From NCBI GenBank assembly GCA_028706475.1, contig JAQWBI010000010.1, positions 1 through 52,042 of the forward strand: DNA of 52,042 nt, read 5' to 3'. The stretch is from Candidatus Cloacimonadota bacterium (GTDB lineage: Bacteria > Cloacimonadota > Cloacimonadia > Cloacimonadales > Cloacimonadaceae). Each line of letters begins with the position of its first letter. The stretch's first letter is position 1. A program made the position numbers and the translations under genes. Below the pieces are notes generated by a model. That model ran no database searches, was not told the origin of the DNA, and saw only the letters and a program-made list of their open reading frames with translations. Below, one piece after another: positions 4,144-47,545 of this stretch.

Positions 4144-7100
4144 ATGTACATAGATCATCGTTATGAAGTTTTGGAGAGTCTCGGATCGGGAAGCTGGGCG
4201 AATGTATATAAAGTTCGGGATATCCGCACAAACAAACTATATAGTCTGAAGCTGTTTCAATATCTATCATCAGAAGAGCTTTACCGCTATTTTAGTGCGG
4301 AAGATATGCATCACATCACAAAGATAGAGCATCCCAATTTATCTCATGTTGTGGATTTTGGACACGTGGGTGACCACATCTACTTCATATCGGATTATTT
4401 TGAAGGCAAGACCCTAGTCAACTATCGATTCTCCAAAGCCAGGATCAGTTTTATCTATGACATTGTAGTCCAGATCTCATACGCTTTACATGCCCTGCAC
4501 AATCAGAATATTCTGCACAAAGACCTCAAACTGGAGAATGTATTGTATCGCATGGAAGGCCCTCATATCGTGATCAATCTAATAGATTATGGTTTTTCTA
4601 AGGTAGATCCTTCGCGAGACAGTCAGCATGTATCTGGAACATTACCCTACATTGCTCCAGAATTGCTAATGGGGCAACAAGCTACCGAGCGCAGTGATTT
4701 CTACAGCCTGGGTGTGTTGTTGTATCGCCTTTGTACTGGTTCATTTCCTTTTAGTGTGGATCAATTGAATGCTCTGATAACGGGTGGGCATCAGTACTTT
4801 ATTCCCAATTTTCCTTCCTCGCTTAATAAGAGCATACCACCAGAACTGGAGCGCTTTATTCTACGGCTTTTGGAACGTAATCCAGAGAACAGGTTTCAAA
4901 GCGGTCAGGAGATCATTGGTTATATAAACCGAATTCATCACGATGAATACCCGTTTTCTGCATCTTGGTCCATTGTAAACACTTTACGTTTCAATAGTTA
5001 TATTGTGCGGGGTAAGTATTCTCATCAGATCCTTGATTTTGTCCCTTCCGTTTGTGAAGCAAATGGTAAGATTATCTCCGTGATAGGGGGAGACGGTCTC
5101 GGGAAAGACAGTATATTATCCCTATTCCGCTATCATTTGTTGGGCGGTGAATTTTTCCTTTTCGATTACTCCTGCACTCGCACTGAACATGAAGCCTTTT
5201 TCGCACTGATCAAGGAATATGTGCAGTCTCTCAGTGATGAAGAGGTAGAAGGTCATGAATTTCTGGCACAGATATCGAAAAAATTTAAACAATACCTGTT
5301 TGGTGAAGAGCAAGAAGCTAAAGCACTCAGTCAGAGCGCAGAAGAGCTCAAATTGGATTTTGAAAGCGTAAAGAGTCTCCTAGTTCATCTATCAGAGCAT
5401 AAGCCCATCATATTCATCATTCGCAACTTCCATTATGTGAATCGGCACACCATAGATTTCATCAACTTCATGTCTCCGATCCTGATACAGAAAAAGATGA
5501 TGATTGTGCTATCCTGCAACGACTTTAATAAAGTCAGCCAGATCAATCATACGGTGATGATTAATCTTCCTTTCTTGAACATTGATGAAAGTAAATCCTA
5601 CATAGACAAGCTGCTACCTGTGCCTGCACCAGATAATATATGTGAAGAGCTATATCGGAGAAGCTCTGGTAATCCCCACTTCATCCGTGAAATTCTTATC
5701 GATCTGGTGCAGAGGAAAAGCATAGTATTGGAAGATGAAGTCATCTTTCCGGAGAGCCTTAAATATTATCAACTGCCCTCACGCCTCCTGCACTCGATCT
5801 ATTCCAGAATGAGCCATCTTACTTCTCAAAATTATGCCTTACTGCAAAAGCTAAGCATCGTACAGACCCCCTTGAGCCGGGAATTGATTATTTACATACT
5901 CAAGTTGAAGGATACCGAACTCTACAACCTGCTGAATGATGCCACCTACAACGAGATACTCAGCAAGAAAGGCAAGTACTACAGTTTTAGCTTCATAGAA
6001 GCAAAAGACCGTATGTTCTCGGAATCTGACCACAAGGTTCATGTGCTGGTATCAAAACGGATTTTGAAGTTTTATGCCCGAAAAGAGATCATTGACAAAG
6101 ACACCTGCTTGGGATTGATCGAAAATGCATTCATTGCACAGGATCTGCAATCTGCCCGCACGTATTATTTGAAGCTCTCAAATCTCTTGAGCGAAGACTA
6201 TGAACAGTCTCAGGCTTACGATGCCATGTTAAGTGTTCTCAAACTGGATTTCGATCCTCGCACTGAAGTAGAAACCAAAGATGTGATAAATGATCTGGCA
6301 ATCTTTCAAGAAAAGACTGAACTAACTGGCTTTTTTGAGCGCGCTGGATTTTTACTGGACAACGCAGACCAGATACCCGAGTTGTTTGAGAAATATCACA
6401 GTATCGGCACTATACTCTTTATGCGTGAAGATCTTAAAGCCGCACTAGAGAGCTTCCAAAAAGCAGAAAGCCTTATTATTACAGGTAAGCAACAACTTCT
6501 GGTTTGGATAGGTTACATTCAAGTATATCTGCGTTCTGAGCCGGAAAAAGCTAAGCAGTATCTGGATCTTGCGCTGGCATCTAAATTACCTCTTGATTTG
6601 CATATAGTCTTTACTGATCGCCTGGCAGTGTATTACGGACAAAAGAAAGACTATGACCGTGCAATTAAGACTCTTGAAGACTTTTTGGAGACTATACCTC
6701 CGGAGCACGATTCCCGGGTAATGGTTCGCCTGGCTTCCATGCACAATGATCTGGGGGTATTCCACAGCGATCTGAAGAACATCGACGAAGCCACTGAACA
6801 CCTGAATATGGCTCTCAGCATCTGGAAACGATACAACATCAGGCGTTTCTGGGGACTTATCTACAATAACCTTTCGGATCTCTATCTCAAACAAGGCATC
6901 ACAGTGCAATCAAGCAGTTACTCCCAGCTGGCATACAAATACGCAAATGAGCTGAATCTCACCACCATAAAAGCCTTGGCACTATTGAATCAAGGTGAGG
7001 CCAAGATCAAAATGGGTGAGTTTAGAGAAGCTGAAACCCTATTGATTTCTTGCCGCGATTTGATCCGATCCATCAGTAGTGTGACCTATATTGATTCTAT

Positions 7101-9597
7101 CCAGCGAAACTTGGCACTGGCAAAAAGTAAAATAAAGGGTTTTGGTCATTACTACGAGTTTATTCTTGAAAGTCAACCGGAACTTACCCGAGGAAAATTG
7201 CGTGAGATAAATCCTTTAGTGAAGACATATTTCTATTATCTAAGCGAAATGATGAGTACCAAGAAACTTCGCAAACTTCTAAGCAGCAACGTTCAAATCG
7301 ATTTCAAGCATCTGCATGAAGAGGAGTTTCATCACAATGTACTAAGCTTGATTGCTATGTCCGAACATGACTATGAGAAAGCTCTGGCGGAATTGAAGCT
7401 AGCAATCCGCCATGCTGGCGAGATCAATAATACTTACGCCATAAATGTGTTTTATATCTTGGAAACTGCCTGTCATTATGGTTTGGGTGACTATGAAAAA
7501 GCCCAGGAATTGATCGATAAAGCGCGCTTAATATCAGAAGAGAACCACTATCGCTATTGGTTATGCAAATTGGACATTCTGCAACTGCGAGTGGACTTGA
7601 TGAATGAGAAGATTCCCTTACGAGAGATTTTGCGGAAGGTTAAAAAGTATTTCCTTGAATGGCAGGAATATGAATACTATCAGCTCTTTGTTGAGCTGTA
7701 TCAGATACGTATCCAGGTTTTACTGGAACTGAAACAAGACGATCATGCAGAACATAGTTACGCAGAATACCAAGGCTATTTGGAACAAATTACTGAGAAT
7801 ACACCTGAAGATGATAGAAGCAACTACCTGGAAGTAAACCTATATAAACTTAATCAACTCCGCAAGTTCAATCTGATTCCTGTGAAGTCTCGAGCCAAGG
7901 ACCTTAGACACAAGTGGAACGAGCTCCTCTTCAACATAGCAAACGTTTACAATGTGGATCGCATCAAATTCCTTATTGGAAAAGGTATCCATGAAGTTTT
8001 GAGCCCTTGGCAGTTCAGATTGATGGAATATAGTGACAGAATTCAGAATTACACTACTTTCCATCAATACAATAGTTCTCAATCCAGCGTGGTTGATCCG
8101 CAATTGGGGCAGGACATCGATAAAGCTATGCGTAATGAGAATCTTGTGTTGAGCGTGATTGATGGTAAGAACATGGCGATAATACCTCTGCAAACAGGCA
8201 TGAAACGAGTGGGTTATCTTGCATTGAATGATGATGGGGAATTGCCTTTTACCAAGCAGGAAATATCTATTATGCGCAACATCAAACAGCACCTCTCTGC
8301 TCTGATAGTGCGCATTCAAGATTTCTCGGAAATAACTCTGCGCATCCAAAAGATGAACGATTTGATGAAGATCTCTCATGAAATGATGCGCATTGTGGAA
8401 ATCAGCGATCTGGAACATGAGATTGTCTCCAGTGCCATAGATTTTACAAATGCCGGTAGAGGTTTTCTGATCAAAAAGGATAGCGACGGTAACAACATCT
8501 ATAAAGTGCAGATTGACAGGCAAAAACAGATTCTGGGCAACGTCGCTGGAGTCAGCAAGTCTGTACTTTCGCTCTCACAAAGCACTCTGGAGATGGTCAG
8601 TACTTATAATGCTTTGGAGGACAACCGATTCAAAGCTGCGATAAGCGTTCAGGATTTTCAGCTTCACACCATATTCTGTGTGCCCATAACGGTTGATGAA
8701 AGTATCTTTGGCTTCCTATATCTTGATAATATGGATGACAATAGCAGGGGTATGTATCTTAAACAAGAGATCATTACACTATTTATAGAACAGATTTCCA
8801 TTGCCATTAAAAACGCGATGCTATACGAAAGCATTCTGCAAAAAAGCACGGAGTTAAACTCCTTTGAGATGCTTAAGGATGAGTTTATGGCGATAGTCTC
8901 GCACGAACTCAATACTCCATTGACTACTTTACAGAGCTATGTGTCGCGCCTGAAACGCAATTTATACGTGGATGAAGATGAACGTAAGGACATCTTGAAC
9001 AAGATCGAGAATTCCGTAAAAAAACTGATCATGACCACCGGAGATATCAACACCATGAACAATTACAATCTGAAAAAGAGTCTTAGTATGGCTGCTGTTG
9101 ATATCTCGGAAATCCTGGAACTGATTCAGCAAGAAGTGGAAATACTATCACGGAAACGGAAGATGTTCATCCGCTTGGAGATAGAAAAAGACCTTCCTCC
9201 GATAATGGTGAACTGGGAAGCACTGCATCTGATGATCTATAATCTGGTTTTGAACGCGATTCGATTTACCAATGATTTTGGCACAGTGGTGATTGGAGCG
9301 CGTAAAGCAGCATTTCAACAGGAAAAACTGGAAGGTAAGGATAGCATGGTGATCTATGTTCAAGACAACGGTATCGGCATTCCAGAGTATCAATTGAAGA
9401 ATGTTTTCCGCAAGTTCTATGAACTCAATGAAATCTATGCTCACAAATCTGGTACTGTGGAGTATCGTTCCAGCGGGCTGGGATTGGGACTATCTACCTC
9501 AAAACGTATAGCTGAACTGCATAAAGGCAAGATCTGGATCAGAAGCAAGGAGAATGAAGGAACTACTGTATTTGTAACCATGCCACTAAAGCATTAG
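4144..9597 (+). CDS. Trifunctional Ser/Thr kinase / NTPase-like / TPR / GAF / sensor histidine kinase
   Basis: A cytoplasmic signalling protein of 1817 residues. Order of parts: Ser/Thr kinase (about 1-265) with glycine loop GSGSWANV (14-21), K36, catalytic loop HKDLKLEN (H125, D127, N132), DYG in place of DFG (148-150) and APE; an AAA_16-like NTPase (about 300-600); TPR-like helices (about 650-1250); GAF (about 1405-1560); HisKA with SHELNTP (H1587); HATPase with N box NLVLNA, DNGIGIP and GLGLGLS. The NTPase looks degenerate: GGDGLGKD has Asp where Ser/Thr normally follows Lys, and the Walker B strand IIFIIRNF lacks the acidic residue. There are no membrane segments, receiver domain or adjacent response regulator. 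ATG 4144 is chosen over 4105 because GGGAG (4133-4137) is 6 bp upstream. This architecture is known in cyanobacteria and myxobacteria; ligand and target are unknown. Confidence 0.92.
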   Translation: MYIDHRYEVLESLGSGSWANVYKVRDIRTNKLYSLKLFQYLSSEELYRYFSAEDMHHITKIEHPNLSHVVDFGHVGDHIYFISDYFEGKTLVNYRFSKARISFIYDIVVQISYALHALHNQNILHKDLKLENVLYRMEGPHIVINLIDYGFSKVDPSRDSQHVSGTLPYIAPELLMGQQATERSDFYSLGVLLYRLCTGSFPFSVDQLNALITGGHQYFIPNFPSSLNKSIPPELERFILRLLERNPENRFQSGQEIIGYINRIHHDEYPFSASWSIVNTLRFNSYIVRGKYSHQILDFVPSVCEANGKIISVIGGDGLGKDSILSLFRYHLLGGEFFLFDYSCTRTEHEAFFALIKEYVQSLSDEEVEGHEFLAQISKKFKQYLFGEEQEAKALSQSAEELKLDFESVKSLLVHLSEHKPIIFIIRNFHYVNRHTIDFINFMSPILIQKKMMIVLSCNDFNKVSQINHTVMINLPFLNIDESKSYIDKLLPVPAPDNICEELYRRSSGNPHFIREILIDLVQRKSIVLEDEVIFPESLKYYQLPSRLLHSIYSRMSHLTSQNYALLQKLSIVQTPLSRELIIYILKLKDTELYNLLNDATYNEILSKKGKYYSFSFIEAKDRMFSESDHKVHVLVSKRILKFYARKEIIDKDTCLGLIENAFIAQDLQSARTYYLKLSNLLSEDYEQSQAYDAMLSVLKLDFDPRTEVETKDVINDLAIFQEKTELTGFFERAGFLLDNADQIPELFEKYHSIGTILFMREDLKAALESFQKAESLIITGKQQLLVWIGYIQVYLRSEPEKAKQYLDLALASKLPLDLHIVFTDRLAVYYGQKKDYDRAIKTLEDFLETIPPEHDSRVMVRLASMHNDLGVFHSDLKNIDEATEHLNMALSIWKRYNIRRFWGLIYNNLSDLYLKQGITVQSSSYSQLAYKYANELNLTTIKALALLNQGEAKIKMGEFREAETLLISCRDLIRSISSVTYIDSIQRNLALAKSKIKGFGHYYEFILESQPELTRGKLREINPLVKTYFYYLSEMMSTKKLRKLLSSNVQIDFKHLHEEEFHHNVLSLIAMSEHDYEKALAELKLAIRHAGEINNTYAINVFYILETACHYGLGDYEKAQELIDKARLISEENHYRYWLCKLDILQLRVDLMNEKIPLREILRKVKKYFLEWQEYEYYQLFVELYQIRIQVLLELKQDDHAEHSYAEYQGYLEQITENTPEDDRSNYLEVNLYKLNQLRKFNLIPVKSRAKDLRHKWNELLFNIANVYNVDRIKFLIGKGIHEVLSPWQFRLMEYSDRIQNYTTFHQYNSSQSSVVDPQLGQDIDKAMRNENLVLSVIDGKNMAIIPLQTGMKRVGYLALNDDGELPFTKQEISIMRNIKQHLSALIVRIQDFSEITLRIQKMNDLMKISHEMMRIVEISDLEHEIVSSAIDFTNAGRGFLIKKDSDGNNIYKVQIDRQKQILGNVAGVSKSVLSLSQSTLEMVSTYNALEDNRFKAAISVQDFQLHTIFCVPITVDESIFGFLYLDNMDDNSRGMYLKQEIITLFIEQISIAIKNAMLYESILQKSTELNSFEMLKDEFMAIVSHELNTPLTTLQSYVSRLKRNLYVDEDERKDILNKIENSVKKLIMTTGDINTMNNYNLKKSLSMAAVDISEILELIQQEVEILSRKRKMFIRLEIEKDLPPIMVNWEALHLMIYNLVLNAIRFTNDFGTVVIGARKAAFQQEKLEGKDSMVIYVQDNGIGIPEYQLKNVFRKFYELNEIYAHKSGTVEYRSSGLGLGLSTSKRIAELHKGKIWIRSKENEGTTVFVTMPLKH

Positions 9598-40665: not shown

Positions 40666-40694
40666 TTGACAAAGAACGGGATTTGGAAGTTTTG
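40666..40694 (+). promoter_or_regulatory. Candidate promoter of tRNA-Leu
   Basis: TTGACA (40666-40671), 19 bp, TTTG (40691-40694), ending 12 bp before the tRNA. It is the clearest case because the transcript start must lie close to 40707 or just upstream. Confidence 0.55.
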
Positions 40695-40706
40695 AAACAT
40701 ACGCGT

Positions 40707-40794
40707 GCCGAAGTGGTGAAATTGGTAGACGCAGTGGACTCAAAATCCACCGGGCTTTTTGCCCATGCCGGTTCGATTCCGGCCTTCGGCACCA
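40707..40794 (+). tRNA. tRNA-Leu (anticodon CAA)
   Basis: An 88-nt class II tRNA with encoded CCA. The acceptor is GCCGAAG/CTTCGGC and the anticodon stem GTGGA/TCCAC, with loop CTCAAAA (anticodon CAA). The long variable arm CGGGCTTTTTGCCCA has a GGGC/GCCC stem, and the T arm is GCCGG-TTCGATT-CCGGC. It reads UUG codons. Confidence 0.97.
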
Positions 40795-40979
40795 TAATTT
40801 GCAAGGAGCGTAACGGCAATTTTGCTATCCGGCAGTATTCTATGATTTTAATGGCAATTTGTATTACAACACTATTTTATATACCGACAGCTTTGTATAC
40901 GATGTTTGCCTTTAGATACACAGGGATATTCAGTGCCCTGTTGAAACTTAAATTTAGCCTGAAACATATGGAGGTATAG

Positions 40980-42005
40980 ATGTCTACCAGACATATCACT
41001 CTGACCCTTTGCTTGCTGTTGCTGGCTGCTGCACCTTTGGCAGCTGTTTCTCAAGCAGCATTGCTCTTCTTATCCTTCGAACCCGGCGGTCGTGCCAATG
41101 GCATGGGCCGAGCCTATTCTGCTGTTGCTGATGATGCATTCGCCATGTGGTGGAATCCGGGTGCCACCGCTTTCAACCGAAAGGGACAAATTGCTTTGAA
41201 CCATGTTCCGTGGCTTCAAGGTTCCGGAATAAACGATATCTATTATGAGTACTTGGGCTGGAACCAATATTTCGAGAGCATTGGAAATATCAATGCACAC
41301 ATAGTGCTACTGGATGCCGGAACTCAGGAACAGACGAGTATTGACGGCAACTTCGAAGGTACCTTCCACACATTGGATATTGCCGGAGCAGTCGGTTATG
41401 CATATGAAGCAATCCCTGCAAAACTGGGCGTGGGAGCCAATTTCAAGCTGATCTATAGCTATCTGGCGCCGGGAACGGGTCATACTGAAACAGAAGGCAA
41501 GGCTTTTAGCTTTGGTTTCGACGTGGGTGCAAAATACAAAGACCTTGCTAATGTGAAAGGTCTGGACCTTGCTCTGGTTATTCAAAACTTTGGTCCCGAC
41601 GTAACTTTCGTGGACCGCGACCAAGCTGATCCTCAACCCCTTACCATGCGATTAGGCGCAGCATACAAAGTTCTGGATAATCCTATGGGAAAGCTTACTG
41701 TTTCCGGTGAAGCAAGCAAGATCCTGGCAAATTCCGATCCATTGATTGAGCGCTTTATAAGCGGATGGGAGTATATGGATGAGACTATCTATGGAGCAGG
41801 TGCAGAATATGTGTATCTGGATCTAATCTCTCTACGTGGCGGATACTTCAACGATGGAGCGGGAAAGATCACTGGTCCCAGCTTTGGTGTAGGTCTTCAA
41901 TACTCCTTTGATAATCGCTACAAGTTGAATGCAGATTTTTCAATGGTTCCCGGTGGAGAATTGGTAGACTTCAATAAAGTCTTTTCCCTGGGAGTTGAAT
42001 ACTAA
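40980..42005 (+). CDS. PorV/PorQ-like outer-membrane protein
   Basis: A 341-residue outer-membrane protein of the PorV/PorQ (UPF0164) group, related to FadL barrels and, in T9SS bacteria, to the shuttle (PorV) that passes cargo to the sortase. A signal peptide (about 1-26) precedes FEPGGRANGMGRAYSAVADDAFAMWWNPGATAF, the hallmark N-terminus. Repeated strands end FNKVFSLGVEY, an aromatic final residue as expected of a barrel. GGAGGT directly precedes the ATG. The hairpin at 42022 follows, and the next gene encodes a protein with a T9SS sorting domain, so this is probably a functional PorV-type pairing. Confidence 0.88.
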   Translation: MSTRHITLTLCLLLLAAAPLAAVSQAALLFLSFEPGGRANGMGRAYSAVADDAFAMWWNPGATAFNRKGQIALNHVPWLQGSGINDIYYEYLGWNQYFESIGNINAHIVLLDAGTQEQTSIDGNFEGTFHTLDIAGAVGYAYEAIPAKLGVGANFKLIYSYLAPGTGHTETEGKAFSFGFDVGAKYKDLANVKGLDLALVIQNFGPDVTFVDRDQADPQPLTMRLGAAYKVLDNPMGKLTVSGEASKILANSDPLIERFISGWEYMDETIYGAGAEYVYLDLISLRGGYFNDGAGKITGPSFGVGLQYSFDNRYKLNADFSMVPGGELVDFNKVFSLGVEY

Positions 42006-42021
42006 CTCTTTCACGAGATTC

Positions 42022-42060
42022 AGAAGCAGATTATATATATATGGTCTGCTTCTACTCTTA
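42022..42060 (+). terminator. Hairpin terminator after the PorV-like gene
   Basis: AGAAGCAGA (42022-42030) pairs perfectly with TCTGCTTCT (42045-42053) around an AT-rich loop. A modest T-rich tail follows. It contains the ATG at 42041, which is therefore unlikely to be the start of the protease gene. Confidence 0.55.
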
Positions 42061-42091: not shown

Positions 42092-45000
42092 ATGAAAAAA
42101 TCAAATTTGTCCCCAATGCCGTATCGCAGTTTATCGATTCTGATCCTTATATGCTTTGCAGCTCCAATCTTTGCGCATAAGATGGTTTTGAAACCAGCTG
42201 CCCATTCTGTGCGGCAAAAAAGACACCCTTTTACTGAAAAGCTTTTGCAGACAAAAAACGATATAGTCTCACGTAAATCCGGGGGAGAATATCAGAAGTT
42301 GCTGGTAATCCTGGTGGATTTTCAAGAGGATTCCGATACTAGAAGTACAGGGAATGGGAAATTCATGTTGGAAGCGGATCCAGATTACATATATTCTGTT
42401 GGTGCTCCACCTCATGACCGCCAGTATTTCGAGGCCAATCTGGAAGCAATGCGCTACTACTATTTGGCTGCATCCGCAGGAAGCTACGAATTGGAATATG
42501 ATGTGTGGCCAAAGGACAAACCAGCTTATACGCTATCGCAGAACATGGGCTACTACAATCCTCCCGATGCAGAATCAAGCGAGTTTGTGGAGAAGATGGA
42601 AGAGTATTTTAAGGAAGCCTTTGAAACTGCAGACAGGGATGATCCTGAGATCGATTTTGCTGCATATGCACACTATATGATAATTCACGCAGGTTCGGAT
42701 TGGCAGCATGATATAGCTGGTGATAGCCCTCTGGATATCCCATCATTCTTCATAAAAGTGGGAGATGGCAAACAAGTAGAGGTAGATGACGGAAACCACG
42801 AGATATTCCACGCTTGTAACGTTCCAGCCACGATCTCTCAGGATTTCCAAACGGAAGAGATAGACGGGCAAGTGATCCACAGCGGTTATGGAGCTTTGAA
42901 TTCGGTATTGTTCCATGAGTTTGGCCATTCTCTGGGCTTGGTGGATCTGTATAATGTAAGAAACTTCAGTCCCATGGTTGGTGCATTTGACATCATGGAC
43001 AGCGGTGGCTCTGGTGTTCTAGTGGATCAGTTAAATAATGGCGATTTTGTCTATCTGGAAGGGGCTATGCCAGTACTTCCCGGAGCATTTAGCCGCCTAT
43101 TGCTGTTTGAAGAGGATTTTGAGAACAGGGGTTTGTTCAAAGAAGTAACTGATCTGAAGCTTTTTCCCAGATTGGATCTGGCTGCCAGCAGCTTGAAACA
43201 AAGTGGGGATATGGGTCCCAGTATTATCCGGTTTCAGATCAATCCGGATGAATACTACTTGATCGAAAACCGCAATCTTGATCCCGACGGAGATGGTGGG
43301 ACAGCTGTGTATGGCACTTTGGAGTATCAAGCAGATCCAACCAGGAAAAGAGTGATTCTGTATCCCACAGCTTATGATGACAATAACAATAGTCCTACCT
43401 ACGAGTATGATTATCTTTTGCCTTCCTTTATAGATGCTCAGGACAATGTACATGGCGGCGGCATTCTGGCCTGGCGTGTGAACGAAAAGGTATTGTATCA
43501 GGAAGGAACAGTATATGAGGATGGGTCTTTTGCATCTAACTTCGATACGAACTATGTGAACACAAGTTTTTCACGTCCCGGTGTGATGGTATTGGAAGCA
43601 GACGGTATCAGAGATCTGGGCGAGTATTACTCTCAATATTGGACAGGCACAGCCTACGAGTATTTCCATGCTCACAAACCTTTTCTGAACAATATTGGCC
43701 AGTTTATGCAGTGGAGTCCGGAAGAGTGGCGTCCGCGCCTGAGTTCGCAAAGCAAACCGGCAATGTTGGATGAGAAAGGTTTGGGCACTATGTTTTATCT
43801 GGACGAGATCAGCGATCCGGCTCCAATAATGAACTTTGTTTTAAAAGCAGGGATGTTCGAAGAATCCGTGAACCTCAATGTTAATGGTTCTTCCTTTGCA
43901 GGGCAAGTAATCAATACATCGTTTGGCAACACTCTGCTCCCGTTTAGCGGTTATAACTACATCAACCTTTATTCTGATGAATACGGGGATTGGTCGCCCA
44001 TGCTTGAGAATGAACCTACCAATGCTGGTTTCTTCGATTATCCACTGATAAACATGAACTTCAACAATGATCAATACATGGACTTAGTTGGAGTTTCAGG
44101 CAATCTATTGTATCTGATCGATATCAGCACAGGTGTGTGCAATACCACTACAATCACATTTCCGGATAGTGTATCCCGGCCTTTGGTTTATGAAGACGCT
44201 GTGTATGTATACGATTCGGATATCCTATACAAAATAAAAGATGGCGCTATAGAATGTTTTGTCCCCATGGAAGGCATCAAAAACTTGACTGCTTATTCGG
44301 ATTGCATCCTGGCAACACAGAAGTCCCGGCTTATGCAATTATCGAAAGAAAGTCTGGAAATAGAAAGAACTATTATGATTCCGGAAGAAATTGGTGATTA
44401 TGAGCCGGTAATCTGTATGGATGCAGAAGAAGCGATTATCTTTGTTACAGCAAATAATGGAAACATCTACCGTTATGCTGCGTACAATGATAAACAAGAT
44501 GAGGGTATCATTGTTCGCATCTTCAGCAATACCGGCTCCTATTTGCCTTCTCAACCGGCACTGATCGCACTTGAGGACACAGAGCTGAGAATTTTCTTCG
44601 GACTGGGCAATAATGCTTATATGCTATCTCAAAACGGTTATCTGCATGCAGGTTTCCCTCGTTATCTCGATAAAATACATATAGAGGCCAAGGCAGATGC
44701 GAAAGCACTGCGCTTAGGAGATGAGACTTTGCTACTATTCCCTGTGGCTCAGCAGGGCTATATCGCCGTTAATGAAGAAGCAGAACCGCGTTATCAGTAT
44801 TCATTGCTAATGCCACATAACGCCATGAATGAATCCTCTGCATGGTCAGACTTCATGTATTATGATGAGGACAATCATAGATTGCTATGGTATTATTCAG
44901 TTGTAGATGGCCAAAACAGCAGAAACTATATCCATAGTATAGCTTCCGATACCAATCCGATTCTTTGGAATGGATACTTGAATTCCGGTTCCGGAGTAGT

Positions 45001-45289
45001 GTATGGTAGCATTACAGGAACAGCAGCACCGGATAATGCTCCTCTACATGCTTATGTGTTTCCCAATCCCGTGAAGAGCGGCATTTATAGATTGAGAGTG
45101 GAGAATGCTTCTGCGGATACAAAACTGCATATCTACGATATTAGCGGAAGCATGGTGTATTCGACCCACAAAAACGATGAAAGATTTGATCTGGAACTGG
45201 ATTCCAAAGACTTAAGTTCTGGTGTGTATGTAGTTCACGTAAAAAGCGGCGTCAAGGATAAAACCTTCAAATTCGCCGTTGAAAAATAA
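42092..45289 (+). CDS. M6-family secreted metalloprotease with T9SS sorting domain
   Basis: A 1065-residue secreted protease. The signal peptide (about 1-32) leads to an M6 (immune inhibitor A-like) domain with HEFGHSLGLVDLYN (zinc motif HExxHxxGxxD, first His near residue 274) and DIMDSGGSG with the Met-turn. A large region (about 600-970) has no recognisable motif and looks beta-rich. The last 85 residues, starting YVFPNPVKSGIYRLRV and ending VYVVHVKSG...KTFKFAVEK, are a type A sorting domain. The ATG at 42092 is chosen with AAGGA shortly upstream; ATG 42077 is possible. It is predicted to be exported by the T9SS and attached to the surface or released, and presumably degrades proteins, fitting a peptide-fermenting lifestyle. 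Confidence 0.93.
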   Translation: MKKSNLSPMPYRSLSILILICFAAPIFAHKMVLKPAAHSVRQKRHPFTEKLLQTKNDIVSRKSGGEYQKLLVILVDFQEDSDTRSTGNGKFMLEADPDYIYSVGAPPHDRQYFEANLEAMRYYYLAASAGSYELEYDVWPKDKPAYTLSQNMGYYNPPDAESSEFVEKMEEYFKEAFETADRDDPEIDFAAYAHYMIIHAGSDWQHDIAGDSPLDIPSFFIKVGDGKQVEVDDGNHEIFHACNVPATISQDFQTEEIDGQVIHSGYGALNSVLFHEFGHSLGLVDLYNVRNFSPMVGAFDIMDSGGSGVLVDQLNNGDFVYLEGAMPVLPGAFSRLLLFEEDFENRGLFKEVTDLKLFPRLDLAASSLKQSGDMGPSIIRFQINPDEYYLIENRNLDPDGDGGTAVYGTLEYQADPTRKRVILYPTAYDDNNNSPTYEYDYLLPSFIDAQDNVHGGGILAWRVNEKVLYQEGTVYEDGSFASNFDTNYVNTSFSRPGVMVLEADGIRDLGEYYSQYWTGTAYEYFHAHKPFLNNIGQFMQWSPEEWRPRLSSQSKPAMLDEKGLGTMFYLDEISDPAPIMNFVLKAGMFEESVNLNVNGSSFAGQVINTSFGNTLLPFSGYNYINLYSDEYGDWSPMLENEPTNAGFFDYPLINMNFNNDQYMDLVGVSGNLLYLIDISTGVCNTTTITFPDSVSRPLVYEDAVYVYDSDILYKIKDGAIECFVPMEGIKNLTAYSDCILATQKSRLMQLSKESLEIERTIMIPEEIGDYEPVICMDAEEAIIFVTANNGNIYRYAAYNDKQDEGIIVRIFSNTGSYLPSQPALIALEDTELRIFFGLGNNAYMLSQNGYLHAGFPRYLDKIHIEAKADAKALRLGDETLLLFPVAQQGYIAVNEEAEPRYQYSLLMPHNAMNESSAWSDFMYYDEDNHRLLWYYSVVDGQNSRNYIHSIASDTNPILWNGYLNSGSGVVYGSITGTAAPDNAPLHAYVFPNPVKSGIYRLRVENASADTKLHIYDISGSMVYSTHKNDERFDLELDSKDLSSGVYVVHVKSGVKDKTFKFAVEK

Positions 45290-45300
45290 GGAGGAAGCAA

Positions 45301-46257
45301 ATGCGCAATACTATCCTCTGTCTATTCATACTTACTCTCGCGGTAAGCCTTTTTGCCCAAAGTGCTGAAGATTGGTTGTGGGATGAAACAGAACCTGAAG
45401 AAGAAAAGCTGGAAGCTGATTTCATCAAGGTAAATTACGATAAAAAAGATGCTCGCCTGGCCATGGTGATGTCTATGCTGGTTCCAGGTGCGGGACAGTT
45501 TTATGCGGATCGCAGCGCTATAACCACATACATATTTCCGGTTGTAGAGATTGGGATGATAGCTGGTTATCTCTATTTTGAGAACAGTGGCAACGACAAG
45601 ACAAAAGATTATGAGCGATATGCAAATGGAGAGGAGATCACATATACTCTTCACAATGGAACAGAAATTACGACGACTCGTTATGACAGGGAGCGACAAG
45701 CATCAGTGGAAAGCCACCTGATCAATTTTAACACTGCTGATATATACGAGGATTTATTCTTCCGCTTGGACGACAACAATTCCCAGCATTTCTATGAGGA
45801 CATCGGCAAGTATTCTCACTACGTATTTGGCTGGGCGGATTGGTATTATACTTTTGCTGCAAATGAGCAAGGTGAATTTATGTATCCGAATTGGTATCCT
45901 GAAGGTGGAGAAGCTAATGATTCGGGTTGGATATGGACAGGTAACTACCCTCTATACAATGATCCTGACCATGGATTTTCCACCGACGAGCAAGTGGATA
46001 AAGCAGATCACCGCTCCAGCCCCATGCGCAAGACCTATATAGATATGCGAAACGATGCCAAAAGTGAATTTGGCAAAGCTCAGATCTTTACCTTTGGTCT
46101 GGCCTTGAACCACATCGTAGCAGGCTTGGACGCTATCCGGGTCACAAAGAGTTACAACCGCAACGCCATCACCGACAGCGGATTTCGCATGAAGTATTAT
46201 ACCGGGATTAGAAACCAGCATATTACTCCCATGATAAACCTAAACTGGACGTTCTGA
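45301..46257 (+). CDS. DUF5683-like secreted/membrane protein (tandem paralogue 1)
   Basis: A 318-residue protein with a signal peptide (about 1-19, ending SLFAQ). After an acidic linker, LAMVMSMLVPGAGQFYADRSAITTYIFPVVEIGMIAGYLYFENSG has the PGAGQFY-type turn and flanking helices of the DUF5683 group. The middle (about 100-230) is Tyr/Asn/Asp-rich. The end, RKTYIDMRNDAKSEFGKAQIFTFGLALNHIVAGLDAIRV, is shared in form with the next two genes. AGGAGG is 7 bp before the ATG. The function is unknown; an envelope assembly or anchoring role is only inferred from the protease and PorV-like neighbours. The longer acidic and middle parts suggest it is the founding type. Confidence 0.75.
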   Translation: MRNTILCLFILTLAVSLFAQSAEDWLWDETEPEEEKLEADFIKVNYDKKDARLAMVMSMLVPGAGQFYADRSAITTYIFPVVEIGMIAGYLYFENSGNDKTKDYERYANGEEITYTLHNGTEITTTRYDRERQASVESHLINFNTADIYEDLFFRLDDNNSQHFYEDIGKYSHYVFGWADWYYTFAANEQGEFMYPNWYPEGGEANDSGWIWTGNYPLYNDPDHGFSTDEQVDKADHRSSPMRKTYIDMRNDAKSEFGKAQIFTFGLALNHIVAGLDAIRVTKSYNRNAITDSGFRMKYYTGIRNQHITPMINLNWTF

Positions 46258-46895
46258 TGAAACATATCATTTTGCTGGTCACTATCCTGATGCTATGCGG
46301 AGCTTTGGCAGCTCAGTCGCACTTGGCATATATTGGTATGAGCGTAATTCTTCCCGGAAGTGGTGAGCTGGCAATGGGGAAGACCAACCGGGGTATAGTG
46401 ATGATCGCAGCCGATATCCTCTCTGCATACTCCTACTTTAAGACGGATTACGATATCGACTTGCAGAGGGATCAGTATAAGCAATATGCTCACGAATATG
46501 CCGGAGTACCTCTGGATATGCCAAACGGTCATTATCAGTCCATTCAGGAGTACGAAAGCAGCGAGGAATATAATAATTACTTGGAAATGATAGCGCGCAA
46601 CTACTACTTGATCTCGAACTATGATCCAGCTGGATATGCAGAATATATGCAAAGCGAGAGCTTTGGCGAAGATGAACAATGGACATGGCAATCCGATGCT
46701 CATTGGGAAAAGTACAGGGATATGCGTAAGAAACACCAAAAAACAAAGATGAATCACACTCTTTCCATAGGATTGTTGCTCCTAAACCGTGCTATTAGCG
46801 TAGTCGATACAGCTATCTTGAATCGAAATATGCATCTATACGCCCAGCCTTCCGGATTGGATGGCATGATGCTCAATTGTGAATTGAGGTTCTAA
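46257..46895 (+). CDS. DUF5683-like secreted/membrane protein (tandem paralogue 2)
   Basis: A 212-residue protein with a signal peptide (ending GALAAQS). Its plan mirrors the preceding gene: YIGMSVILPGSGELAMGKTNRGIVMIAADILSAYSYF (turn PGSGELAMG), a middle with many Tyr/Asn/Asp/Glu residues including a DEQWTWQSDAHWEKYRDMRKKHQ segment, then LLLLNRAISVVDTAIL where the first has LNHIVAGLDAI. The start overlaps the first gene's stop by one base, and the stop overlaps the third gene in the same way. Clear homology to the neighbours is at the level of pattern, not of identity. Function unknown. Confidence 0.72.
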   Translation: MKHIILLVTILMLCGALAAQSHLAYIGMSVILPGSGELAMGKTNRGIVMIAADILSAYSYFKTDYDIDLQRDQYKQYAHEYAGVPLDMPNGHYQSIQEYESSEEYNNYLEMIARNYYLISNYDPAGYAEYMQSESFGEDEQWTWQSDAHWEKYRDMRKKHQKTKMNHTLSIGLLLLNRAISVVDTAILNRNMHLYAQPSGLDGMMLNCELRF

Positions 46896-47545
46896 TGTGT
46901 GCTCATAAAAGACTATTGGTGTTTTCTCTTTGCCTTGTTTCCTTGAGTGGATTGTGGGCACAGAATAAGGACTTTTTGCTCTCATTAGCAATTCCAGGCT
47001 TATCTCAAGTCAAGAACGGCAGAAATATCGGATATGCACAAATGGCTACTGAAGCCGTTTTTATTGGGACTCAACTCTATTGTAACAGTGAAGCAAAACT
47101 CTTGAGGGATGAATCCTATACCTATGCACTGAAGTTTGCCCATATCAACCCAGGGCATTACGATAGCAGCTTTTACAAAAATTTGGGTAAATATAATAGC
47201 AGTGGATTCGACGCCATGGGATATAATGCATCTGTCAGGGAGGAAGCCTTGAGTCTGTATCCCGGTGATCCCATCAGCCAGCAGCAGTACATAGATGATC
47301 ACGCTTATGGCGAGGATAATTACTGGAATTGGGATAGTGAACAGCATAAGTCTTCTTTCAACGGTATGCGTAATGATGCCCTGGACTTCGAATCTTATGC
47401 TCAACTGGCATTAGGAGTTACCATTTTGAACCACTTGTGGAGCGGTATAGATGCTTTAAGACACAGCAAACAGAAGCGAGATGCTCAATTTAGCATAGAT
47501 ATCCTGCACAATGTCCCCCTTTTGAAGCTCTCGGTAAAGTTATGA
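46895..47545 (+). CDS. DUF5683-like secreted/membrane protein (tandem paralogue 3)
   Basis: A 216-residue protein with a signal peptide (ending SGLWAQN) and the same outline as its two neighbours: LLSLAIPGLSQVKNGRNIGYAQMATEAVFIGTQLY, then a Tyr/Asn-rich middle with EDNYWNWDSEQHKSSFNGMRNDALDFESYAQLALGVTILNHLWSGIDALRH. The last stretch is very near that of paralogue 1 (LNH...DA). The turn reads PGLSQVKNG, so the Gly of the usual PG-x-G is replaced by Ser. Its stop overlaps the coaBC start by ATGA. Function unknown. Confidence 0.72.
   Translation: MCAHKRLLVFSLCLVSLSGLWAQNKDFLLSLAIPGLSQVKNGRNIGYAQMATEAVFIGTQLYCNSEAKLLRDESYTYALKFAHINPGHYDSSFYKNLGKYNSSGFDAMGYNASVREEALSLYPGDPISQQQYIDDHAYGEDNYWNWDSEQHKSSFNGMRNDALDFESYAQLALGVTILNHLWSGIDALRHSKQKRDAQFSIDILHNVPLLKLSVKL

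Follow-up and report, generated by a model that had tools for sequence, protein, structure and literature searches.

A conserved five-gene unit of Cloacimonadota couples a PorV-like shuttle and an M6 protease with three DUF5683 proteins, candidate envelope-side partners of a type A T9SS cargo

The closest described gene sets serve type B cargo of the T9SS. In P. gingivalis, PorP holds the type B cargo PG1035 and in turn binds PorE, a periplasmic protein associated with the outer membrane, and shuttle-cargo-PorE operons occur in F. johnsoniae (PMC9143113, PMC12618676). Type A cargo of P. gingivalis is anchored by PorU through A-LPS (PMC11285876). The block described here lies in a 52,042-nucleotide stretch of DNA from a Candidatus Cloacimonadota bacterium (the window; coordinates are window positions and all features lie on the forward strand). 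It encodes a PorV-family protein, an M6-like protease and three further proteins, termed P1, P2 and P3. Like the PorE-PorP-type B CTD cargo complex, the gene set combines a single cargo with a dedicated beta-barrel shuttle and a putative envelope-side partner. It differs in having a cargo with a type A CTD, a PorV-like shuttle and, as the putative partner, a trio of DUF5683 proteins. The PorP/SprF shuttle, the type B CTD and the peptidoglycan-binding PorE of that complex are all missing from the block, and the layout alone is similar. In the literature outside subscription journals, the T9SS of Cloacimonadota receives a passing mention only, no account of PorV together with M6 was found, and DUF5683 is named solely in an unrelated context without a function. 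To our knowledge, DUF5683 has no known function, and the statement of the original prediction that no role is established was correct in this respect.

The first gene of the block (40980..42005) encodes a PorV/PorQ-family outer-membrane shuttle protein of 341 aa, which matches the PorV/PorQ family profile NF033709 with 209.9 bits (7e-62), above the cut-off of 90. Against the equivalog NF033710 it reaches 115.8 bits, below the cut-off of 250, compared to 78.8 bits for the next best PorV copy tested in the window genome; judged by profile score, it is the closest to canonical PorV among the copies checked. Targeted searches of this genome returned eight PorV-family matches and 66 sorting-domain matches, and several PorV-family genes (on contigs C2, C25, C7 and C10) directly adjoin CTD cargo genes. 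The idea that the block copy serves as the general PorV of the genome was rejected, given that PorU and SprA are retained in the two block-less genomes checked, which means that the T9SS as such does not need it. Just upstream, a 98-aa ORF (40683-40979) covers tRNA-Leu (caa) at 40707-40794 and is therefore probably no gene. A 14-pair hairpin (AGAAGCAGATTATATATATATGGTCTGCTTCT, 42022-42053) stands between PorV and the likely M6 start, where it could reduce readthrough into M6 or provide a processing site. A promoter scan gave a site count no higher than in shuffled sequences.

The M6 ORF opens at 42041, and its likely start is the ATG at 42092, which follows the ribosome-binding-like AAAAGGAAAA and precedes an N-terminus that by eye resembles a signal peptide. 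The product (42092..45289) is an M6-like metalloprotease (PF05547 3.7e-4, NF052323 1.4e-59) and a T9SS type A cargo. Its C-terminal sorting domain (45056..45274) matches PF18962 (Por_Secre_tail) at 3.4e-11 and TIGR04183 at 2.1e-10, and has the top score of the 66 domain matches in the genome. The closest named family, the T9SS-dependent M6-like inactivated metalloproteases (NF052323), gives a match of 202 bits that covers the M6 and middle regions; the block protein does not reach the cut-off of 600 bits and, unlike that family, has an intact zinc motif, HEFGHSLGLVD (42914..42946). This motif (HEFGHxxGxxD) is intact in 36/36 module loci, and the motif loss expected of NF052323 is absent. T9SS core components are encoded in the same genome (PorU 607.9 bits; SprA 490.6 bits in total).

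P1 (45301..46257, 318 aa), P2 (46257..46895, 212 aa) and P3 (46895..47545, 216 aa) follow. P1 and P2 overlap by 1 base, as do P2 and P3, and P3 overlaps coaBC, which begins at 47542, by 4 bases. The original prediction had described three genes overlapping by one to four bases, each with a signal peptide, downstream of a PorV-like gene and an M6 protease with a sorting domain; the arrangement was confirmed by the coordinates and by the NF033709 and Por_Secre_tail matches, and the signal peptides are present as judged by eye and hydropathy. Its suggestion that the three genes are paralogues with profile similarity was borne out by hhalign, run on alignments of 57 P1, 65 P2 and 53 P3 orthologues. 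The comparisons gave probabilities of 99.7% for P1-P2 (1e-25), 100% for P2-P3 (5.6e-44) and 99.6% for P1-P3 (1.4e-24), far above chance, the E-values being pairwise and free of database calibration. On this profile evidence, P1, P2 and P3 are true paralogues.

The proposed relation to DUF5683 (PF18935) was also supported. When orthologues were scanned singly at E <= 0.1, PF18935 was matched by 57/57 P1 (best 4.9e-9), 35/65 P2 (9.4e-10) and 17/53 P3 proteins (9.9e-4), and P3 is further tied to the family by its hhalign match to P2. Window P1 itself reaches 24.3 bits (3.6e-5), below the gathering score of 26.7 bits, and window P2 and P3 have no match by themselves. Taken with their orthologues, all three proteins appear, by profile, to be divergent members of DUF5683. 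They share with the family the signal peptide, the PG-x-G turn, the hydrophobic helix, the polar middle, a last helix that finishes with DA or similar and two C-terminal strands with Phe as the final residue. The window genome also encodes a canonical DUF5683 protein (a 163-aa ORF on contig C5), which has the same anatomy in roughly one half to two thirds of the length. P1-P3 differ from the family by a much larger middle (212-318 aa in total compared to about 144-163; the polar middle of P1 is enlarged), by their tie to PorV-M6 and by window proteins that score under the Pfam cut-off. The LIC11435 family (NF047756) has the PG-x-G hydrophobic region in common with P1 (6e-6), but the match is partial, with 57 residues and 25 bits against a cut-off of 380. 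A PHROGs search gave no significant match.

The sequence motifs of the original prediction held in part. PG-x-G is present in P1 (PGAG, 45484..45495) and P2 (PGSG) and is replaced by PGLS in window P3; the PG pair itself is invariant across 81 aligned trio members. A common MRN...LNH...DA end is found in P1 and P3 (MRND..LNH..DA), but P2 reads MRKK..LNR..DTA. All 81 aligned members carry an acidic residue, Glu or Asp, in the first long hydrophobic helix (Glu83 of P1, 45547..45549; in the same alignment column, Asp53 of P2, 46413..46415, and Glu53 of P3, 47051..47053). In the last helix, all 81 likewise have an Asn whose next residue is His or Arg (Asn270-His271 of P1, 46108..46113; Asn177-Arg178 of P2, 46785..46790; Asn179-His180 of P3, 47429..47434).

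In the AlphaFold2 models of P1 (pLDDT 83.8) and P2 (90.0), a short helix and the PG turn are followed by two long helices, the first of 36-40 and the second of 42-50 residues, with a polar head between them, and by a beta-hairpin at the C-terminus. Judged from the helix registers, if the long helices pack against each other in antiparallel fashion, the conserved acidic residue and the Asn-His/Arg pair would be level with each other. Foldseek searches of both models against the PDB returned nothing at E <= 0.001 and no solved relative; matches to GldM/PorM had TM-scores < 0.2 and were dismissed as noise from long helices. A sequence search of the PDB with P1 found nothing, and the P2 matches, mostly antibody chains at E >= 0.03, were attributed to chance. 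That an intact-looking protease is almost always paired with predicted exported, polar and Tyr/Asn-rich proteins would also fit a quite different relation, in which P1-P3 are substrates of M6, for example precursors processed at the surface, and not its helpers. This seems very improbable, as the conserved, ordered core of P2 in the model and the polar residues within the helices suggest a structural machine.

A feature that the original prediction overlooked is the C-terminal residue. A terminal aromatic residue on an amphipathic strand is a well-known signature of outer-membrane barrel proteins. P1 ends in an amphipathic beta-hairpin with terminal Phe (46186..46254; DSSP strands 296-304 and 307-315), as does P2 (46830..46892; strands 192-199 and 203-210), and P3 has a hairpin-like segment (47480..47542) that ends in Leu in the window and in an aromatic residue in 55/57 orthologues. 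Across the trio, 179/182 members (P1 57/57, P2 67/68, P3 55/57) have an aromatic C-terminus on an amphipathic strand, compared to a background of 10% in neighbouring genes and 34/35 for PorV barrels. The trio helices have a median KD19 of about 1.0-1.6, which is borderline for inner-membrane segments. In view of the terminal aromatic residue combined with borderline helix hydrophobicity, we can only infer the membrane in which P1-P3 reside.

The order of the five genes was compared in 40 loci sampled across the phylum, the genomes being mostly MAGs. PorV-M6-P1-P2-P3 on one strand was found complete in 25 of 29 loci, coming from the 11 families of the window's order, and no locus had another order. 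Three of the remaining four start at M6, at a contig start or at the edge of the examined stretch, and in one PorV is split in two frames. The synteny that the original prediction had put up for checking is thus conserved through the phylum. The genes are close together, with spacing generally near zero or negative, mostly <=14 nt from P1 to P2 and mostly a 17-nt overlap from P2 to P3. The sole interrupted block (G011; L096, G011:C182) has genes of 480 and 1513 aa between M6 and P1. Upstream and downstream neighbours vary between families and the block stays constant, which marks the five genes as a conserved unit; that PorV, M6, P1, P2 and P3 form one unit is well supported. Downstream of the block in loci of other families and f13 (L109:12290-19444, L114:4064-9200, L121:2596-9810), one or two histidine ammonia-lyase-like genes, a lipoprotein with a CVYYNTFYNA-like start, an EcfT-like gene and TruA were read by eye.

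A shorter version of the block occurs twice. In family f13 of the sister order, PorV-M6-P2 is found in 7/7 complete loci, with a 4-nt overlap of M6 and P2 in 6/7. The single DUF5683 gene of f13 groups in the tree, whose rooting is weak at depth on account of long outgroup branches, with P2 of family f12 (100/99), which has P1, P2 and P3; therefore, P1 and P3 were more likely lost in f13, and the notion of its single gene as the unduplicated ancestor was dropped. A further genome, G092, arrived at PorV-M6-P2 independently, and its block lies midway along a 277-kb contig. As both reductions retain P2, it is the member always kept and, on this comparative evidence, appears to be the indispensable core. 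The trio was probably present in the ancestor of the class. The description of the three genes as diverging, made in the original prediction, is too weak for an ancient trio with one constantly retained member.

Loss was surveyed in 71 genomes (>= 90% complete, <= 5% contaminated), absence being read from fragmented assemblies. P2 was found in 65/71 and an M6 match at 1e-18 in 68/71; in G080 the M6 match is apparently to the paralogue only and the genome's own block lies at a contig end. Apparent losses of P2 in G069, G095 and G103 were set aside, as the contigs end inside or just past M6-P1. Three genomes from three genera (G041, G004 and G034) are without M6, P2, P3 and the PorV orthologue, their best PorV matches reaching 50-56 bits compared to >= 223 for complete orthologues; a weak P1 match elsewhere in G034 (E 0.003) is likely another DUF5683 protein. 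PorU (616 bits in G041, 597 bits in G034) and SprA (201 bits in each) are retained in the two of these three genomes that were checked, so the block is best seen as an optional addition to the T9SS, lost whole. This co-loss and the near-zero or negative spacing support the view, already expressed in the original prediction, that the genes form an envelope module linked to T9SS cargo.

The whole-block losses also bear on the proposal that P1-P3 are general envelope proteins, like DUF5683 elsewhere, and are linked to PorV-M6 by co-expression only. In the window genus the gene run extends into the housekeeping genes coaBC, queA and birA, as this proposal would have it, and both canonical DUF5683 proteins and a P2 relative in Marinimicrobia are found without PorV-M6. 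Two such relatives (L212:1923-2591 and L213:7848-8516; P2 profile 3e-32 and 7e-29) came, with 15 Cloacimonadota loci, from a contig scan of named genomes that used two patterns and was not exhaustive. They end in ..RLNLRF or ..RLNFRF and adjoin genes named by eye as Lnt-like (apolipoprotein N-acyltransferase-like), EcfT-like, then TruA and HtrA; PorV and M6 are absent from both neighbourhoods. In several Cloacimonadota, the region downstream of the block likewise contains EcfT-like and TruA genes, which suggests that the P2 gene is probably old at that position; PorV-M6 may have joined it later or have been lost in Marinimicrobia. The lack of PorV-M6 in Marinimicrobia implies a role of the family independent of the protease. 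Yet the housekeeping neighbours vary between families while the five genes remain together, and the whole block was lost in at least three separate genera, which makes a link by co-expression only unlikely. Elsewhere in the window genome, a DUF5683/LIC11435-like protein ending in ..GLELRF is encoded downstream of a TPR-like protein gene (L146:3585-4181, contig C55). On contig C3, a PorU-like protein of 1678 aa (L148:5994-12049) lies beside a PorV2-like gene (NF052325, 102 bits), separate from the canonical PorU at C3:20560, as a possible second sortase-shuttle pair.

A second M6-PorV pair of the window genome (contig C25; L147:3789-6968 and 6991-7893) permits a direct comparison. Its order is M6-like gene, PorV-family gene and another CTD protein gene; the M6 paralogue has a sorting domain and a broken zinc motif (HQFGHVLGLPT), and with 286 bits against NF052323 it is of the inactivated type. 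No DUF5683 gene lies beside this pair, and in the single available comparison of one intact and one inactivated pair the trio thus appears to accompany the intact protease only. M6-like matches about 2 kb from a PorV-like match, an arrangement that resembles the C25 pair, were seen in G034, G046, G047, G074 and G083. The main rival account, which we consider rather unlikely, builds on this comparison: P1-P3 would be periplasmic chaperones or inhibitors attached to the inner membrane, which keep the active M6 harmless before secretion, until the T9SS takes over. The trio indeed goes with intact M6 (36/36) and is absent beside the HQFGH pair, and the helical hairpins after the signal peptide could serve as inner-membrane anchors. 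Against it, the comparison comprises one active and one dead pair only, the C-terminal strand with its terminal aromatic residue points to outer-membrane handling, and related DUF5683 proteins occur in the window genome without an adjoining protease.

The layout shared with the PorE-PorP-type B set leads us to propose P1-P3 as the envelope-side partner of PorV-M6. As a whole, the best explanation, which we put forward tentatively as plausible and short of probable, is a unit of one type A cargo and its dedicated shuttle, with the DUF5683 trio in that role. Equipped with a signal peptide and a type A sorting domain, M6 would cross the outer membrane via the common T9SS translocon and then pass to the PorV-family shuttle reserved for it. 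P1-P3 would be exported proteins whose long antiparallel helices have a weakly hydrophobic base and a polar head rich in Tyr, Asp and Asn, with the amphipathic beta-hairpin at the C-terminus. They may sit in or against a membrane, most likely on the periplasmic face of the outer membrane, and probably as a hetero-oligomeric partner of PorV. There they could keep the PorV-M6 complex in place, position it or license it, in much the way that PorE acts on PorP and type B cargo, with P2 as the putative core subunit and P1 and P3 as specialised duplicates. The trio, which stays with PorV and M6 through almost the whole phylum, may thus help to handle or anchor the M6 protease at the cell surface, a role so far undescribed for DUF5683. 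Several points count against this explanation: anchoring of type A cargo through A-LPS would make a protein anchor unneeded, the second PorV-M6 pair of the genome copes without DUF5683 neighbours, the P2 relative of Marinimicrobia adjoins neither PorV nor M6, the Foldseek searches gave no solved relative, and the KD19 of the helices is compatible with an inner-membrane location. A more far-reaching version is doubtful, namely that P1-P3 form a new T9SS accessory hetero-oligomer under a cargo-specific PorV, and that this assembly traverses or lines the envelope and has a single active surface protease under its control.

If true, the proposed role would be the first function for DUF5683 and would mean that type A cargo, like type B cargo, can have private shuttle-anchor sets. 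The strict five-gene partnership is a concrete lead on DUF5683 function, and the concept of private cargo-shuttle-anchor sets, hitherto confined to type B, would be extended to type A cargo with a PorV-like shuttle. In Cloacimonadota, where the T9SS has hardly been studied, the loss of the whole block and its two reductions to P2 provide a natural experiment.
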